Positions 49,742-59,740 of a stretch of 64,000 nt of DNA are shown here, in pieces. The notes below the pieces were generated by a model. It worked only from the letters and a program-made list of their open reading frames with translations. It did no database searches and was not told where the DNA came from. Source of the stretch: Microlunatus antarcticus (GTDB lineage Bacteria > Actinomycetota > Actinomycetes > Propionibacteriales > Propionibacteriaceae). Location of the stretch: contig NZ_JACHZG010000001.1 in NCBI RefSeq assembly GCF_014193425.1, positions 1,054,001 to 1,118,000 on the forward strand. Direction: 5' to 3'. Numbering within the stretch: position 1 is the first letter of the stretch; each line of letters begins with the position of its first letter. The position numbers and the translations under genes were made by a program.

Positions 49742-50317
49742 TCAGCGGGGTCCGCCGAAACCGATCACGCCCTTCTCGGCCGCCTTCTTGACGGCGTCGG
49801 CCTCGGCCTGGGTCAGCGTGCCGGCCTTGACCGCGGCGGCGAGCCGGTCGTCCAGCGCCTTGGTCCGGTCCGCCTCGCGCGCGGCGCGGATCTCGTCGAG
49901 GGCGGTCTTGACCTTGGCCTCGTCGACGCCGAGCTTCGGCGCGAGCGCCTTCGCCAGCGCGGCGTCGTCGGCCGCCGGGTCCCGCGGGGTGGGCGCGGTG
50001 CCCGGGGTGGGCCTGGTCGTGGGCCGGTTCGCCTCCCGCACCTCCTGGACCGCCGTCGCGACCTTGGCCTGGTCGAGACCGAGCTTGGTGGCGAGCTCGG
50101 TCGCCAGCTGGCCTCCGTCCTTCTGGCCGTGGCCGCGGCCGCCGTGACCGCCGGGGCCGGGCTGAGCGGGGGCGGACGCGCCGGAGCTGGGGGCGGCAGG
50201 GGTGGGGGTGGGGGCGGCGCTGGCGAAGCCGGCGATCCCGGCGGCGGCGCCGACGGCGACGACACCCATGGAGGCACCGAGGACGGTGCGCTTGGCCTTC
50301 GTGGACAGGTTCTTCAT
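49742..50317 (-). CDS. Secreted protein with two helical repeats
   Basis: A 191-residue exported protein. A signal peptide (KRTVLGASMGVVAVGAAAGIAGFASAAP) is followed by a Pro/Ser/Gly/His-rich stretch and two related units: QLATELATKLGLDQAKVATAVQEVREA and ALAKALAPKLGVDEAKVKTALDEIRAA, each a compact helical hairpin. A final TLTQAEADAVKKAAEKG resembles a calcium-free EF-hand-like helix pair, as in SHOCT-like or DUF-type secreted proteins. Function unknown. ATG 50317 is chosen since the signal begins there; ATG 50329 is an alternative. Confidence 0.75.
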   Translation of the reverse strand: MKNLSTKAKRTVLGASMGVVAVGAAAGIAGFASAAPTPTPAAPSSGASAPAQPGPGGHGGRGHGQKDGGQLATELATKLGLDQAKVATAVQEVREANRPTTRPTPGTAPTPRDPAADDAALAKALAPKLGVDEAKVKTALDEIRAAREADRTKALDDRLAAAVKAGTLTQAEADAVKKAAEKGVIGFGGPR

Positions 50318-50392
50318 GGGCCGAAGCATCCGGGCCGTATCTGAGCGACGGCTCGGACGGACCTGTCAGGACCCTGGGTGTCGCTGTGCCCG

Positions 50393-53142: not shown

Positions 53143-54294
53143 TCAGGCAACGGCCGCCGTGACCAGGGCGAGGGCCTCGTCGAGGTCGTCGACGACGTGG
53201 ACGGCGCCGGCCATGGGTGAGTCGTGGGCGAGGGCCTGCAGGAGCGGCCAGGCCGGCAGCGTGGTCGTCCAGTGCTCGCGGCCGAGGAGGACGAGCGGGG
53301 CGCCGGAGCTGCCGCGCAGACCATAGAAGCGGTCGTTGGCGGCCTGGAAGATCTCCTGGACCGTGCCGGCGGCGCCGGCGGCGAAGACGATCCCGCCGCG
53401 GCAGCGGTGCAGCAGGGTGTCCTCGCGCAGCGCGTTGGCGAAGTACTTGGCGATCGACGTGCCGAAGACGTTGGTGGGCTCGTGGCCGTAGAACCAGGTG
53501 GGGATGCTCAGGCTCGCCCCCACCCGGTCGCCCCGCCAGCGGTCGCGGACGGCGAAGGCGGCGGAGGCCCAGCCGTCGGCGTCGTCGCCGTAGTCGGACG
53601 AGGTGGCCAGCTGCTCGAGCGCCACGGGCAGCGCGTCGTCCCAGCCGCTGAGGTAGGCCCCCAGGTTCGCGGCCTCCATCGCGCCCGGCCCGCCGCCGGT
53701 GAGCACGGTGCGTCCCGCCCGGGTGAGCCCGGCACCCAGCCGGGCCGTCGCCGCGTACGCGGGGTCCTGGCGGCGCAGCGCGTGGCCGCCCATCACCCCG
53801 ACGACCCGCGTGGGGTCCAGCCGGTCGGTGACGTCGTCGAGCGCGCCGTCGACGCTGTGGTCGTGGAGCGTCGCGGCGAGGTCGGCGGTCAGGGTGTTCC
53901 CGGCCGGCGAGCGGGTCCAGGCGTAGACGGCGGAGTCGGGGCTGCGGGCGTACGGCGGCCGCCGGCCGTCGTGGACGCCGTACAGCTCGTCGGGGGAGTA
54001 GAGGAGCGGGCGGTACGGGTCGAAGGGCACGTCCGGCAGGGCCGGGAAGAGCAGGGCGCCGCCGGACCGCAGCCGTTCCGCGACGTCGGGACCCGGGTCG
54101 GCGCCGCTCGCCGCCGCCCGTTCGGCGAAGCGGCACCCCAGGAACACGGCGCCCGTGACGTCGACACGGAGCAGGACGTCGGTGCGGTCCCGCAGGTCGA
54201 GCGAGGAGACGAAGCAGCCGTTCAGCGCGCCCGTGCGGGCGACCTGCGCGTCGAGGTCGGCCAGGCTGTCGATCTCCACGCTCCGAGCCGTCAC
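53143..54294 (-). CDS. LOG/SLOG-fold nucleotide-binding protein
   Basis: A 383-residue protein with an N-terminal region of about 130 residues (GCFVSSLDLRDRTDVLLRVDVTGAVFLGC) and a C-terminal Rossmann-like LOG domain. VVGVMGGHALRR and TVLTGGGPGAMEAANLGAYLSG give the nucleotide-binding glycine loops. The catalytic motif PGGxGTxxE of LOG phosphoribohydrolases appears as AAGAAGTVQE, keeping G-T-x-x-E (Glu314) but losing the first PGG. It is third in the operon with the S8 peptidase and the CHAT protein, 13 bases after the CHAT stop. GTG 54294 is the start. It may bind or hydrolyse a nucleotide signal. Confidence 0.8.
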   Translation of the reverse strand: MTARSVEIDSLADLDAQVARTGALNGCFVSSLDLRDRTDVLLRVDVTGAVFLGCRFAERAAASGADPGPDVAERLRSGGALLFPALPDVPFDPYRPLLYSPDELYGVHDGRRPPYARSPDSAVYAWTRSPAGNTLTADLAATLHDHSVDGALDDVTDRLDPTRVVGVMGGHALRRQDPAYAATARLGAGLTRAGRTVLTGGGPGAMEAANLGAYLSGWDDALPVALEQLATSSDYGDDADGWASAAFAVRDRWRGDRVGASLSIPTWFYGHEPTNVFGTSIAKYFANALREDTLLHRCRGGIVFAAGAAGTVQEIFQAANDRFYGLRGSSGAPLVLLGREHWTTTLPAWPLLQALAHDSPMAGAVHVVDDLDEALALVTAAVA

Positions 54295-54307
54295 CCGGCC
54301 ATCCTGG

Positions 54308-56887
54308 TCAGGCGGGCGCCGCGAAGCGGACCGCCGCGCCGAAGCACACGAACGGCACGGGCCGACCGGTCGCGGCGATCGCGTCGGCGAGCGCGACGGC
54401 GGTGTCCGCGCCGCCCGCCAGCCGCCGGTGGTAGCCGACCATCACCTCCGCCGCGAGCTCGTCGCCGACCTCCGCCACCCCGGCGACCACGCAGCGTGCG
54501 CCGAGCTGCAGCAGCACGCTGGTCAGCCCGAGCGACTCCTCGCCGGGGCGCACCGTCGCCTGGCCCAGCTCGCAGGCCGACAGGACGACGTGCGCGGGGA
54601 CCTGCGCGGCGTCGAGCTCGTACGCGAACAGCGGCCCGTCGGCGAGGTCGAGGGAGGAGAAGAGCGGGTTCTGCGCGACGTGGTGCCCGTGGGCGGCGAG
54701 GTGGGCGATCGTCGCCGTCGACCCCTGCTCCGCGAAGGCCTGGCCCGTGGCCGCCGGTCCGGTGAAGACCCGGGTGCCCGGCCAGGTCGCCGCCACCCGC
54801 GCGACCTCGTCGACGGCGGCCGGCACCCCGGGCCCGGCGAGGGCGACGACCCGGGCCGGCAGGACGTCGTCCGCCTGACCTCCGCCGGACCCGGCCCGCT
54901 GCCACCACGCCCCGGCGGTGGGCGCGACCTCGACCGGTCGACCGACGAGCGACGGCAGGCACGACCACGGAAGGGTGCTGAGGTCGGCGGTGGGCACGAC
55001 GACGAGCGGCGCGTCGGACAGGCCGAGCGGCTCCAGCAGCAGGCGCTCCAGCGCGGCGAGCTTGTGCGTCGCGGACGCGGTCGCGCTGGTCCGCAGCCGT
55101 TCCGGGACGCGGGAGCGGGCGACGACGTCGAGGTCGGCGCGCACGGTCCGGGCCAGAGCACCCGCGCGGGCGGCCCCCGGGAGCCCGACCAGTCGCGGGC
55201 GCCCGGCCCCGAGGACGACGGCCACGAGGTCGCCGCGGTGGCGTCCGAGCACGACCAGCTGCCGGCCGCGCTGCGCGAGCCGCTCGCGCACCCGGGCCAG
55301 GGCGGCACCCGCGTGGGCCGGGCCGAGGCCGGCGCTGCGCCAGGCGAGACCCCGCAGCCGGTCCTCGACCTCGCTGATGCGCTCGCGGACGTCCTGCGCC
55401 TCCGCCCGGCGGCCCGGGTCGGCGCCGATCTCGTGCAGCGTCGCCGTCAGCCGGCGCAGCTCGACGAGCGAGGACGCGGACGCGTCGGCCGGCGGGGTGA
55501 CCGGCACCAGCCGTCGGGACTGGGCCCGACCCCGCTCGAGCGCGGCGAACACGTCCGCCGGCCGACCCCGCTCGAGCGCGAGGTCGAGGTCGAGGGCGGC
55601 CAGGCGGCGGCCGTGCAGCGCGCTCGCCGTCTGCAGGTCGACGCTGCCGAACTGCGCCTGGTGCCGGACCAGCTCGTCGAGGCCGCGACGCACCTGGCGG
55701 GCGGCCAGCGCGGCGTCGCCGGCCGCCCGGGCCAGCTGCGCGGCGACCGTGCGCTGCTGCAGCCGCAGCTCGACGATGTCCGTCCGCCGCGGCGGGGCGA
55801 TCGTCGCGAAGACCGCGGCCGCCTCCGACCGACGGCCGGCGGCCAGCAGCGCCTCGCAGCCGAGCAGGCGCGCCGACTTCGCGTACGTCGTGAGCTCGTC
55901 GGCCGCGAACTCGTCGGCCAGGCGCAGCGCGGGAGCGGCGAGCAGGCCGGGCGGCCGCCCGGCGGACAGGTCGCCCGCCAGCAGGACCAGCTCGGCCCGC
56001 CGCCGCCACGACACGTTCCCGCGGCGTCGGAACCGCGTCCGGGCGGAGCCGGCCAGACGGCGGGCCAGGTCGAAGCGCCCGGTCAGCAGCGCGACCTGGG
56101 CGCCCGACAGCTCCGTCTCGGCGAGCGACGCCCAGGCCCGGCCCTGCCGGAACTGCTCGGCGGCCTCGCGCAGCGTGGCGTCGGCGTCGTCGGTCAGGCC
56201 GGCCTCGATCAGCACCCGGGCCCGGTCGAGCAGCGCGACGGCCGGTGCGGCACCACCGCCCAGGTCGGCCGCGTCGCTCATCCGCTGCAGCGCCGCCGGC
56301 TGGTGGCCGGACAGGTGCTCCACCCAGCCGAGATTGTGGGTGGCCATCATGGCCAGCGTCAGCAGCTCGGGGTGACCCGCGGCGCGGTCCAGGCAGCGGG
56401 CGAAGTCGCGCCGCGCGGCGACGAGGTCGAGCCGTTCGAGGTTGACCACGCCCCGGTTCAGCAGCATCTTCACCGCGTCCAGGTCGGTCGCGCTGCGCAG
56501 CAGGGGCTCGGCCGCGGTGAAGTGCGTCAGCGCCTCGTCGAAGGCGCCGCTGCGCAGCGACTGCAGGCCGAGCGTCTGGTGGATGACGAAGGCCAGGTCG
56601 TCGGCCCGGACCGCGACCGCCAGGTCGGACGCGGCCGCGAGCGGGGCCCGGCTCCGGGCCGGGCCGCCGACCTCGTACTCCATGTTCGACAGCAGCACCA
56701 GGAGCCGCACGCGGACCCGCTGCACCTCGACGGTGCCCGGCGCGGGCCGGACGAGCTCCAGCGCACGGGCGGCGCGGCGCCGGCTGAGGTCGTAGCGGCC
56801 GGCGAAGGCGTGTGCGAGCGCCTCGTCGTGGTGGCGGGTCGCGCGGACGACGAGGTCGACGTCCGGGTGGGCGCGCGCCGGCGTCAG
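54308..56887 (-). CDS. TPR-CHAT (caspase-like) protein, probable CTG start
   Basis: An 859-residue protein. Residues 1 to about 560 are helical TPR-type repeats (for example AFDEALTHFTAAEPLLRSA, WVEHLSGHQPAALQRM). The C-terminal CHAT protease domain has the catalytic His733 in IAHLAAHGHH and Cys772 in LSACELG, both intact. The first in-frame ATG/GTG/TTG would be GTG 56725, losing 54 residues including repeat sequence. An in-frame CTG at 56887 overlaps the S8 stop (CTGA) and has GGAGGAG 5-6 bases upstream, which is the best start. It probably cleaves target proteins on a signal; it is coupled to the S8 peptidase and LOG genes. Confidence 0.85.
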   Translation of the reverse strand: MTPARAHPDVDLVVRATRHHDEALAHAFAGRYDLSRRRAARALELVRPAPGTVEVQRVRVRLLVLLSNMEYEVGGPARSRAPLAAASDLAVAVRADDLAFVIHQTLGLQSLRSGAFDEALTHFTAAEPLLRSATDLDAVKMLLNRGVVNLERLDLVAARRDFARCLDRAAGHPELLTLAMMATHNLGWVEHLSGHQPAALQRMSDAADLGGGAAPAVALLDRARVLIEAGLTDDADATLREAAEQFRQGRAWASLAETELSGAQVALLTGRFDLARRLAGSARTRFRRRGNVSWRRRAELVLLAGDLSAGRPPGLLAAPALRLADEFAADELTTYAKSARLLGCEALLAAGRRSEAAAVFATIAPPRRTDIVELRLQQRTVAAQLARAAGDAALAARQVRRGLDELVRHQAQFGSVDLQTASALHGRRLAALDLDLALERGRPADVFAALERGRAQSRRLVPVTPPADASASSLVELRRLTATLHEIGADPGRRAEAQDVRERISEVEDRLRGLAWRSAGLGPAHAGAALARVRERLAQRGRQLVVLGRHRGDLVAVVLGAGRPRLVGLPGAARAGALARTVRADLDVVARSRVPERLRTSATASATHKLAALERLLLEPLGLSDAPLVVVPTADLSTLPWSCLPSLVGRPVEVAPTAGAWWQRAGSGGGQADDVLPARVVALAGPGVPAAVDEVARVAATWPGTRVFTGPAATGQAFAEQGSTATIAHLAAHGHHVAQNPLFSSLDLADGPLFAYELDAAQVPAHVVLSACELGQATVRPGEESLGLTSVLLQLGARCVVAGVAEVGDELAAEVMVGYHRRLAGGADTAVALADAIAATGRPVPFVCFGAAVRFAAPA

Positions 56888-58626
56888 CGGGGCTCCTCCA
56901 CACCGGGCGCCTCGGCCCGGACCGCCCGCCAGCCCGCCTCGACGCGGGCCTCGACGTCGCGGGCGTCCTCGAGCCGGGTGGCGCCGTCGTCGAGCAGGCG
57001 CCGGGCCAGGTCGCCGGCGAGGATCGGGGCCGCGAAGGACGTCCCGCTCCAGGTCGCGAAGCCGGAGGAGAAGTTGTCCGGGTCGATGGTCGACCGGACC
57101 CCGCCGTCGGCCGTCACCCGCGAGCTCGCCTGCTGCCCGCCGTCGAACGTCGTCGGCACCGTGCTGACGATCGAGGCGCCGGGCCGCCAGGCGCGCACCC
57201 ACGGACCGTCGTTGGAGAACAGGGCCGCGGTCCCGTCCGGGTTGAGGGCGCCGACGGCCACGAGCGGCACCTCGTCGACCGACGTCTCGGTGACGACGCC
57301 ACCCGGGTGCGGGGCGAAGGACGCGGGGAAGATCGGCCGGCTCGTGGCGTCGTTGCCGGCCGAGGTCACCACGAGGACGCCGAGCCGCGCGAGCGCCTGC
57401 AGGGGAGCGAGCAGCAGGGGGTCGAACGCGGCGTCGGCCGGGTCCTCGTGGTAGTAGCCGAGCGAGAGCGACACGACGTCGACCAGCGCGTCCGGCTCGT
57501 CTTCGGCCAGGGCCAGCACCTGACGCACCCAGAGCATGTTCAACGCCTGGAGGACGTCGTACTCGTCGATCACGCCGTCCGGCTGCACGACCCGGACCGA
57601 CAGGATCCGTGCGTCCGGGCAGCGCTGGTGCACCAGCCCGGCGACGAACGTGCCGTGCCCCGCCTCCACGTCGAGCGACCCGGTGAGCCCCCCGGTGACG
57701 ACGCCGGACCGCTCGAGGTCGGTCGCAGGGTCGGTCAGCCCGATCCGCAGCGGGCCGCAGGTCGGGGTGCGGTCGACGACGTCGTCCAGCCACGGGTGCC
57801 GGCCCGTCCCGGTGTCGAGCACGGCCACGACGGGGCGGCGGCGTCCGGCGAGCTGGGCCTCGGTCAGCCGGGCCGGCCGTGGGCCCACCCAGCGCACCGG
57901 CACCCGCCCGCCCCAGCCGGGCTGGGCGTACTCCCCGGTGGCCGCCGCGGAGGACGACCCGGCCGGGTGGGCGACGTAGGGGTGGGCGACGTACGGGTTC
58001 GGGGTGGGGGCGTGCGCGACGTAGGGGTTGGTCTGCGGGGCATGCGCGACGTACGGGTTCGGGGTCGCGGCGTGCGCGACGTACGGGCTGGGCTGCATGC
58101 CGTGACCGTCGGTGCGTTCGCCGGACCCGGCCGAGGTGGTCAGGAGGTGCTGCAGCTGGACCGCGCCCCGCCAGGAGGCGTCGACGTCCGCGCGGTAGCG
58201 CTGCAGCACCGGCCACGCGTCGGGCGTCGTCCGGGGCCGGGTGTCGTCGACGGGCCGAGCGAGCGACACCCGCACGACCAGCGGGCTGCGTCCGCCGAGG
58301 AGGCCGGCGCGGCGGACGAGGTCGACCAGCGCGGTGTCGGTGGGGTCGACCTCGAGGGCCCAGCCCTCGGCGTCGGCCGCCGACCGCAGCGCGTCCAGGA
58401 CCTCCGGCTCGACCGCCCCGTCAGGCCCGGGACGCACGAGCAGCCCGCCGCCGACGTACGGGGTCGGCTGCAGCCGCTGCCCGGCGAAGCGGACCGCCGT
58501 GCCCGGGTCGAGGAACCGGGCGCCCCGCGGGTCCAGGTGGTCGCGCCGCGGGCCGTGCCGTCGAGGCGTCGGCGCGAGCGGAGGGCGCGCGGTCGGGGCG
58601 TTGCTGTCGGCGGGGTCGTACGGCAT
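56884..58626 (-). CDS. Cytosolic S8 (subtilisin-family) serine protease with PYVAH repeats
   Basis: A 580-residue subtilisin-family protein. The catalytic triad is Asp271 (VAVLDTGTGRH), His324 (GHGTFVAG) and Ser530 (SGTSFAAP). There is no signal peptide, so it should act inside the cell. Before the protease domain, about residues 178-221 form a Pro-rich linker with five PYVAH units (NPYVAHA type), and an earlier QPTPYVGGG lies near residue 53. The N-terminal 150 residues have no recognised domain. It heads the operon with the TPR-CHAT and LOG genes and overlaps the CHAT start. Operon context suggests a protease cascade. ATG 58626 is the first start after the promoter region. Confidence 0.87.
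   Translation of the reverse strand: MPYDPADSNAPTARPPLAPTPRRHGPRRDHLDPRGARFLDPGTAVRFAGQRLQPTPYVGGGLLVRPGPDGAVEPEVLDALRSAADAEGWALEVDPTDTALVDLVRRAGLLGGRSPLVVRVSLARPVDDTRPRTTPDAWPVLQRYRADVDASWRGAVQLQHLLTTSAGSGERTDGHGMQPSPYVAHAATPNPYVAHAPQTNPYVAHAPTPNPYVAHPYVAHPAGSSSAAATGEYAQPGWGGRVPVRWVGPRPARLTEAQLAGRRRPVVAVLDTGTGRHPWLDDVVDRTPTCGPLRIGLTDPATDLERSGVVTGGLTGSLDVEAGHGTFVAGLVHQRCPDARILSVRVVQPDGVIDEYDVLQALNMLWVRQVLALAEDEPDALVDVVSLSLGYYHEDPADAAFDPLLLAPLQALARLGVLVVTSAGNDATSRPIFPASFAPHPGGVVTETSVDEVPLVAVGALNPDGTAALFSNDGPWVRAWRPGASIVSTVPTTFDGGQQASSRVTADGGVRSTIDPDNFSSGFATWSGTSFAAPILAGDLARRLLDDGATRLEDARDVEARVEAGWRAVRAEAPGVEEPR
57964..58095 (-). repeat. NPYVAHA-coding tandem repeat
   Basis: Five imperfect in-frame copies of a unit encoding PYVAH (context SPYVAHAA, NPYVAHAP, NPYVAHAP, NPYVAH, PYVAHP). 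The DNA copies share GCGTGCGCGACGTA-like cores, so they probably arose by duplication. Confidence 0.8.
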
Positions 58627-58747
58627 CGGCGGGCCTTCGGACGAGGAGTGATGACAGTTCTACCGCTCCGGAGACGAAAGGGCGATGGTTGATACGCCCC
58701 TGAGGGTGGGGCTTGGGTCCCGCGGGCGCACGGGTAGCGTCAGCCGG

Positions 58748-59740
58748 ATGGAACAGCGCGTGCTCGGCCGGACCGAACGACCCGTCTCGACCGTCGGTCT
58801 GGGGACCTGGCAGCTGGGCGCCGACTGGGGCGAGGTCGACGAGCGTGACGCGGTCGCGGTCCTCGACGGGGCCGTGGAGGCGGGGGTCACGTTCTTCGAC
58901 ACCGCCGACGTCTACGGCGACGGCCGCAGCGAGCGGCTGATCGGCAGCTACCTCGGCGAGCACGACGACATCGAGCTCGTGGTGGCGACCAAGATGGGCC
59001 GCCGGATGGACCAGGTGCCCGAGAACTACGTCCTCGAGAACTTCCGCGCCTGGACCGACCGCTCGCGCCGCAACCTCGAGGTCGACCGCCTCGACCTCGT
59101 CCAGCTGCACTGCCCGCCGACCGCCGTCTACTCCGCCGACGAGGTGTACGACGCCCTCGACACCCTGGTGTCCGAGCACGTGATCGCCGCGTACGGGGTC
59201 AGCGTCGAGACGTCCGACGAGGCGCTGACGGCGATCAGCCGCCGGGGGACCGCGTCGGTGCAGATCATCCTCAACGTGTTCCGGCGCAAGCCGCTCGAGT
59301 TCGTGCTGCCCGCCGCGCAGGCGGCCGGCGTCGGGATCATCGCCCGCGTGCCCCTGGCCAGCGGGCTGCTGAGCGGCCGCTACGACGAGCAGACGACCTT
59401 CGCGGAGAACGACCACCGCAGTTACAACCGCCACGGCGAGGCCTTCGACGTCGGCGAGACGTTCTCGGGGGTGGACTACGAGACCGGCGTCCGCGCCGCC
59501 CGTGAGTTCTCCCGCCTCGTCGCGGCGCTGCCGTTCGAGGCCACCCCGGCCCAGGCCGCGCTCGCCTGGGTGGTCCAGCAGCCGGGTGTCACCTCGGTGA
59601 TCCCGGGCGCCCGGTCCCCGGAGCAGGCGCGGGCCAACGCCGCTGCCGGCGAGCTGCCGCCGCTCGGCGACGACTTCATGGCCGCCGTCGAGGAGCTCTA
59701 CGCCCGCGAGATCGCCCCGCTGGTCGCCGACCGCTGGTGA
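58748..59740 (+). CDS. Aldo/keto reductase
   Basis: A 330-residue NADPH-dependent reductase with a TIM-barrel fold. VSTVGLGTWQLG opens it, catalytic Asp and Tyr lie in VTFFDTADVYGDG, Lys in VVATKMG and His in DLVQLHCPP, with the C-terminal cofactor site SVIPGARSPEQARANAAA. It reduces aldehydes or ketones; the substrate is unknown. ATG 58748 has TAGCGT 7 bases upstream, a leaderless promoter divergent from the S8 gene. Confidence 0.93.
   Translation: MEQRVLGRTERPVSTVGLGTWQLGADWGEVDERDAVAVLDGAVEAGVTFFDTADVYGDGRSERLIGSYLGEHDDIELVVATKMGRRMDQVPENYVLENFRAWTDRSRRNLEVDRLDLVQLHCPPTAVYSADEVYDALDTLVSEHVIAAYGVSVETSDEALTAISRRGTASVQIILNVFRRKPLEFVLPAAQAAGVGIIARVPLASGLLSGRYDEQTTFAENDHRSYNRHGEAFDVGETFSGVDYETGVRAAREFSRLVAALPFEATPAQAALAWVVQQPGVTSVIPGARSPEQARANAAAGELPPLGDDFMAAVEELYAREIAPLVADRW

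Follow-up and report, generated by a model that had tools for sequence, protein, structure and literature searches.

The window analysed here, a 64-kb (64,000-nucleotide) stretch of the Microlunatus antarcticus genome, holds adjoining genes for an S8 subtilisin-like serine protease (S8) and a TPR-CHAT cysteine protease (CHAT). In related bacteria both belong to a conserved unit of four genes, which is made up of an extracytoplasmic function (ECF) sigma factor, a small protein of ~160 amino acids (aa), the TPR-CHAT protease and a serine protease.

The S8-CHAT pair and its four-gene module

The features of the pair are the following:

56884..58626, minus strand: S8 subtilisin-like serine protease, 580 aa, with an N-terminal region, a repeat linker and a catalytic domain (aa 264-542)
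54308..56887, minus strand: TPR-CHAT cysteine protease, 859 aa, with His733/Cys772 and a CTG as apparent start, which overlaps the stop codon of S8
57967..58086, minus strand: repeat array of the S8 linker, five PYVAH copies (aa 181-220)
58671..58695, minus strand: promoter-like motif GTATCA-N16-CTC, beginning 69 bp ahead of the ATG of S8

The original prediction had read these two genes and a third one, coding for a LOG protein, as a single minus-strand unit. As genes all three proved real and correctly read, since the coordinates, the 4-base overlap (CTGA) that joins S8 to CHAT, the 13 bases that separate CHAT from LOG and the Pfam domains all agreed. The Pfam matches were Peptidase_S8 (6e-20) for S8 and CHAT (3.9e-23) for TPR-CHAT; that of LOG, to SLOG cluster4 (1.6e-6), was barely over the cut-off. 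The overlap with S8 needs a CHAT start at the CTG at 56887, which has GGAGGAG just upstream; the next in-frame ATG, GTG or TTG lies 54 codons downstream, and translation appears to begin at the CTG. The catalytic residues named earlier are right, as the S8 triad D271/H324/S530 was unchanged in 38/38 aligned S8 homologues and H733/C772 in 41/41 aligned CHAT homologues, the window proteins being counted in both.

No signal peptide was apparent at the N-terminus of S8 on inspection by eye. Identity of S8 with the mycosin of type VII secretion systems was rejected (59.9 bits against an NCBIfam equivalog cut-off of 278.75), as were QhpE and dentilisin, with scores far under their NCBIfam cut-offs. 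Models of the anti-phage protein IetS gave 13.7 bits in PADLOC and 14.5 bits against a cut-off of 900 in NCBIfam, and none of the three window proteins had a meaningful defence match in PADLOC.

In profile searches (Pfam for the sigma factor), the sigma and small-protein genes were found side by side in 37 of 40 CHAT loci, and S8 was likewise present in 37 of the 40, with at least four different gene orders. Sigma and small protein were absent from L049 (a 5.7-kb contig), L052 (genome G042) and L056 (G012), and also from the window; the loci without S8 were L049, L062 and L063. Among 196 sampled genomes of the order, the small protein was detected in 89, all of which had a CHAT match and 87 an S8 match. 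A second set of loci was obtained with the CHAT alignment as query of genome contigs, which returned 416 relatives, the best 80 being kept; the window CHAT sequence alone as query gave no match in the same kind of scan. These 80 named actinobacterial loci contained the sigma gene in 70 cases, the small-protein gene in 72, S8 in 61 and all four genes in 53, with several loci cut by contig ends and with L123 and L158 counted even though their genomes had been seen before (as L052 and L059). When S8 was sought elsewhere in 12 genomes (11 without S8 in the fetched locus, plus that of L169, which has one), a match was found in six, two of them at E < 1e-40 and either unlinked or on another stretch.

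The genes for ECF sigma factor and small protein are thus nearly always found as a pair, in genomes that also have TPR-CHAT and a serine protease. The linkage claimed for S8 and CHAT was borne out: both co-occur and adjoin across the order, and apparently moved together in the lineage of the window.

Among the NCBIfam matches listed for the sigma factor, only the sigma70-ECF superfamily was over the cut-off. The small protein was modelled with predicted N-terminal helices and an Ig-like beta sandwich, and comparison of it with solved structures gave no trustworthy match. Two small proteins were scanned and one showed a weak CarboxypepD_reg match (E 0.02, under the cut-off); no membrane segment was seen by eye.

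Repeat arrays and the exchangeable protease

The S8 array is a short peptide repeated in tandem, and it separates the N-terminal region of the protein from its catalytic domain. In other loci the units were NPYATG (~12 copies), NPVWDG (8), APFTRG (8), PYYAGV, GHPITG and others. An array was detected in 71 of 96 S8 genes located on the CHAT strand at a score of 8, and in 65 at a score of 11.5, shuffled sequences scoring at most 5 (270 shuffles). This count leaves out L123 and L158, as coming from the genomes of L052 and L059, and L112, in which CHAT is on another contig and S8 has an array; close relatives were counted separately, and the 71 arrays include that of L178, an acidic stretch located outside the linker. 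The unit had six residues in 58 of the 71 arrays, and in 60 of them it contained a P with F, Y, W, H, V, I or L as the next residue. As many as 55 different units were used, uniform within a gene and differing between species.

Of 1683 positions at which neighbouring units had the same residue, 634 had different codons (0.38); for randomly paired occurrences of a residue in the remainder of these proteins the fraction was 0.42. The codons are thus nearly randomised while the residues are identical and, therefore, the arrays are old as DNA and have been kept uniform as protein. The repeat peptide itself seems to be under selection, and the repeats look like a recognition tag. Some S8 genes without a scored array hold irregular copies (PHVAF four times in G042) and others hold none. 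Outside the repeat gene, among the matches listed for 32 loci, the peptide was found only as scattered single 5-mers in L044, L068 and L070.

In 16 of the 19 named loci without S8, all 16 from Cellulomonas, a divergent gene for a trypsin-like protease was found; the remaining three (L140, L152 and L192) end shortly upstream. This protease is unrelated to S8 and carries its array C-terminally, PFTE or PFTQ repeats being present in 14 of the 16 proteins and the other two running off the contig end. Five of the proteins were scanned with Trypsin_2, with two over the cut-off (best E 1.3e-6, L135) and three under it. On a quick FastTree tree of 136 CHAT domains, built without L123 and without CHAT fragments of less than 550 residues and uncertain in its long branches, the trypsin-like group needs two changes. 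A trypsin-like gene without repeats was also seen in L068 (4451-5938, minus strand), next to a module in which S8 has the repeats (GGIWGGV).

The repeats also occurred without a protease. In L062 and L063 (genomes G192 and G119), where S8 had no match, a putative open reading frame (ORF) of ~60-67 codons is located between the promoter-like motif and the sigma gene, immediately upstream of the latter:

L062:12102-12171, minus strand, and L063:7421-7478, plus strand: putative small repeat ORF with PYYVPL or PYYVPM repeats

No free repeat ORF upstream of sigma was seen in 25 named loci examined; in the Cellulomonas loci, the repeats were found instead in the divergent trypsin-like gene.

The split module, its shared motif and the LOG neighbour

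In the window genome (G000), the sigma and small-protein genes are located at G000:C1:642304-643382, 466 kb from S8-CHAT. The operon content given by the original prediction was right in placing S8 and CHAT together, and missed this distant pair as well as the repeat array. The pattern GTATC[AT]-N15-17-CTC had a single match in the 64-kb window, upstream of S8, and a single match in 20 kb around the sigma gene, upstream of sigma, so that the motif precedes both halves of the split module. It was present at up to 300 bp upstream of a system gene (measured from the start of the profile match) in 28 of 44 loci, the chance expectation being 0.004 per 330-bp stretch, of which each locus had at most four. 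The pattern had been drawn from eight of these 44 loci (8/8 match; 20/36 in the others) and loosened after the upstream sequences of the remaining loci were seen; the 80 named loci served as a fresh test, and the motif was found in 57 of them. In its bipartite form and its spacing the motif is consistent with an ECF promoter, and we infer that the sigma factor of the module reads it.

Sigma and small protein are likewise apart from S8-CHAT in G042 and G012. In G000 and G042 the sigma-small pair lies between a Na/H exchanger gene and a CNNM gene. Relatives of these two genes enclose the whole S8-sigma-small-CHAT cluster in G001, G116 and G053, with a tRNA-synthetase gene beside it. As S8 and CHAT flank sigma and small protein in these three genomes, they most simply left together for the site between LOG and an aldo-keto reductase gene while the sigma-small pair stayed, judging from gene order. 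A second split was found in G126, with 883 kb between small protein plus sigma and S8-CHAT (G126:C1:2571120-2571572 and 3455048-3457405; L114 and L113); the sigma half of this genome is ~9 kb from a LOG gene. In L136, from a Friedmanniella metagenome-assembled genome, S8-CHAT was accompanied by TFNHGV repeats and the motif, and neither sigma nor small protein was present in the fetched stretch; perhaps this is the same split as that of the window. Two further genomes, G107 and G162, lacked S8 and CHAT matches as well as the small protein, and the ECF genes found in them were distant paralogues.

The genes on both sides of S8-CHAT in the window are:

53143..54294, minus strand: LOG/SLOG-cluster4 protein, 383 aa, a bystander outside the module
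58685..59740, plus strand: aldo-keto reductase gene (Pfam Aldo_ket_red), flanking S8-CHAT on the side away from LOG and adjoining LOG where S8-CHAT is absent

The reductase coordinates are those of the longest ORF, and its first codons may be unused. The LOG motif is FAAGAAGTVQEIF in the window, which departs from the usual PGGxGTxxE, as had been noticed at first; the departure is common to a 76%-identical orthologue, since its FAAGASGTVQEVF also departs.

A strong LOG match (E < 1e-60, not always full length) was found in 126 of the 196 genomes, 51 of them without the small protein. Among the 80 genomes with both LOG and CHAT, the two genes were within 1 kb of each other only in the window genome and in G042 (Microlunatus flavus, of the same genus), and ~11-20 kb apart in nine more; neither arrangement was found in the other 69. 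The nine genomes (G128, G130, G165, G159, G146, G185, G044, G032 and G124) belong to genus g24 and possibly reflect shared synteny. In the congener G107, LOG (71% identical by tblastn) ends 91 bp from the aligned start of the reductase gene (83%), and further genes known from the window flank the two on either side in unchanged order; S8 and CHAT matches are both absent from this genome, which thus shows an empty site. S8-CHAT sits in the window exactly between LOG and the reductase gene, and in G001 LOG adjoins the reductase gene (by Pfam) while S8-CHAT lies elsewhere.

LOG is not a component of the system, because of its adjacency to CHAT in 2/80 genomes, its presence in 51 genomes without the small protein and the empty site in the congener. 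The expected co-occurrence of the three homologues held across the order for S8 with CHAT, which are linked, and failed for LOG. Once LOG is excluded, the cascade that had been proposed loses its nucleotide sensor. That cascade of S8, CHAT and LOG could still appeal to the gene spacing in the window and in M. flavus, and to the LOG genes some way from CHAT in genus g24; in view of the rarity of the adjacency, the LOG genes in genomes without the small protein, the empty site and the LOG-reductase pair of G001, we find it scarcely credible.

Readings of the module and published parallels

CHAT proteases are related to separase and to the CRISPR-guided protease Csx29, and to our knowledge few of their natural substrates have been found. 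The peptide described above is uniform within a gene, differs between species and is also present on an unrelated protease, which points to a short recognition peptide; the split genome and the shared motif tie the proteases to an ECF sigma factor group. We tentatively suggest that the repeats are a peptide tag specific to each species, which the TPR superhelix of CHAT would read; carried by a subtilisin or a trypsin-like protease, or made as a bare peptide, the tag would serve to switch an autoregulated ECF sigma factor. We hold this tag reading to be possible and less likely than not. In the main explanation of the module, the sigma factor would transcribe its own operon and the protease operon from GTATCA-N16-CTC, and the small protein would be its regulator. 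A separase- or Csx29-like TPR-CHAT protein would recognise the repeat tag through its TPR superhelix, the tag would couple the serine protease, as substrate, activator or product, to CHAT, and one of the two proteases would cleave the small protein or the sigma factor, by which sigma would be switched. In support of this scheme are the constant partnership, the split with a shared motif, the conserved catalytic residues, the uniform repeats with diverged codons and the exchangeable protease. If the tag reading is true, it would represent an intracellular peptide-tag code that diverges between species and has exchangeable protease heads.

Several observations weigh against this proposal. Seven genomes with a CHAT match, which are those with the seven weakest best matches, and four genomes with an S8 match have no small protein; two of these, L120 and L121 (G151 and G115), contain a distant S8-sigma-CHAT set in which it was not detected, and in two of the named loci the small protein was found but no sigma gene was detected. 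The co-occurrence of small protein and CHAT gave a Fisher value of 5e-48 in the 196 related genomes, but presence follows phylogeny and, therefore, this value is no probability of independent events. The small protein had no anti-sigma match by sequence or by fold. By pattern, the motif was absent from 16 of the 44 loci, eight of which had supplied the pattern, and from 23 of the 80 named loci. Finally, no array was scored in 25 of the 96 same-strand S8 genes nor in any of the 19 on the strand opposite to CHAT, so some versions of the module can do without the tag.

Other explanations of the same data were considered. The repeats could be redundant CHAT cleavage sites, at which a cut frees the S8 or trypsin-like catalytic domain from the N-terminal part; the freed protease would then degrade cellular proteins in stress or dormancy, and sigma would control expression only. 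The location of the S8 array between N-terminal region and catalytic domain and the full conservation of the catalytic residues (38/38 and 41/41) would agree with such a zymogen cascade, but the trypsin-like protein has its array at the C-terminus, not between domains, and the array of L062 and L063 is a small ORF without an attached protease, so that we consider it unlikely. We are just as doubtful about a switch in which the proteases keep sigma low by degrading it, with no anti-sigma factor and with the repeats tethering the proteases into one particle. Degradation of this kind has been proposed for ECF54 (PMC8999054); however, the small protein is as constant as sigma (the same 37/40 loci), which suggests a dedicated partner. 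Linkers often vary, and the same-strand S8 genes without a scored array (25/96) would suit a neutral expanding linker in housekeeping proteases that share a neighbourhood. This last explanation is very improbable, given that codons differ nearly as random (0.38 vs 0.42) between identical residues and that a tail of this kind recurs in a small ORF and on a protease unrelated to S8.

The neighbourhood of the module is already in print, as a review describes carboxypeptidase, subtilase and CHAT proteins in the genetic context of ECF54 members, calls the mechanism class mainly actinobacterial and gives proteolytic control as a proposal only (PMC8999054 section 3.3, citing Casas-Pastor 2021 and Huang 2015). 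The relatives of the window resemble this description, as their ECF sigma gene mostly has subtilase and CHAT genes in its vicinity (sigma 37/40 and S8 37/40 in the CHAT loci; 70/80 and 61/80 in the named loci). In contrast, the window genome itself has a split module, in which sigma is not linked to S8-CHAT, and the ECF54 section of PMC8999054 is silent on repeat arrays, trypsin-like replacement, free repeat ORF and motif. The main explanation as a whole, with S8-CHAT as the protease half of an ECF54-type four-component module and with the functions proposed above for sigma factor, small protein and tag, is about as likely as not.

In Craspase, according to the available passages of PMC10028731, a TPR-CHAT protease (Csx29) cuts an inhibitor of an ECF sigma factor, with Csx30 and CASP-sigma among the other parts. 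No Csx30 chain was among the sequence matches of the small protein, and the present module has an extra serine protease. Craspase is the nearest worked-out parallel in logic and not a proven relative of the whole system. DdvA (PDB 8rw5 and 8rot) is by its title a transmembrane anti-sigma factor, unlike the small protein, in which no membrane segment was seen. A published neighbourhood of a caspase-type protease, a TPR protein and an ECF sigma factor has the same kinds of genes side by side, a likeness by description only, and its description names other components and no subtilisin. Multi-copy peptide precursors and the RRNPP peptide-TPR receptors are further comparison systems; the peptide here, however, sits in a protease, and TPR fold matches are common. 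In the available parts of PMC8195603 and PMC7159879, no joining of CHAT, subtilisin and ECF sigma factor was found. In the literature searched, no paper was recognised as treating the repeats, the trypsin-like replacement, the free repeat ORF or the motif, although the primary ECF papers may contain some of this; the neighbourhood itself is known.

Elsewhere in the window, a gene for a small Ala/Pro-rich protein with a signal peptide, as judged by eye, was seen at 49742-50329 on the minus strand.

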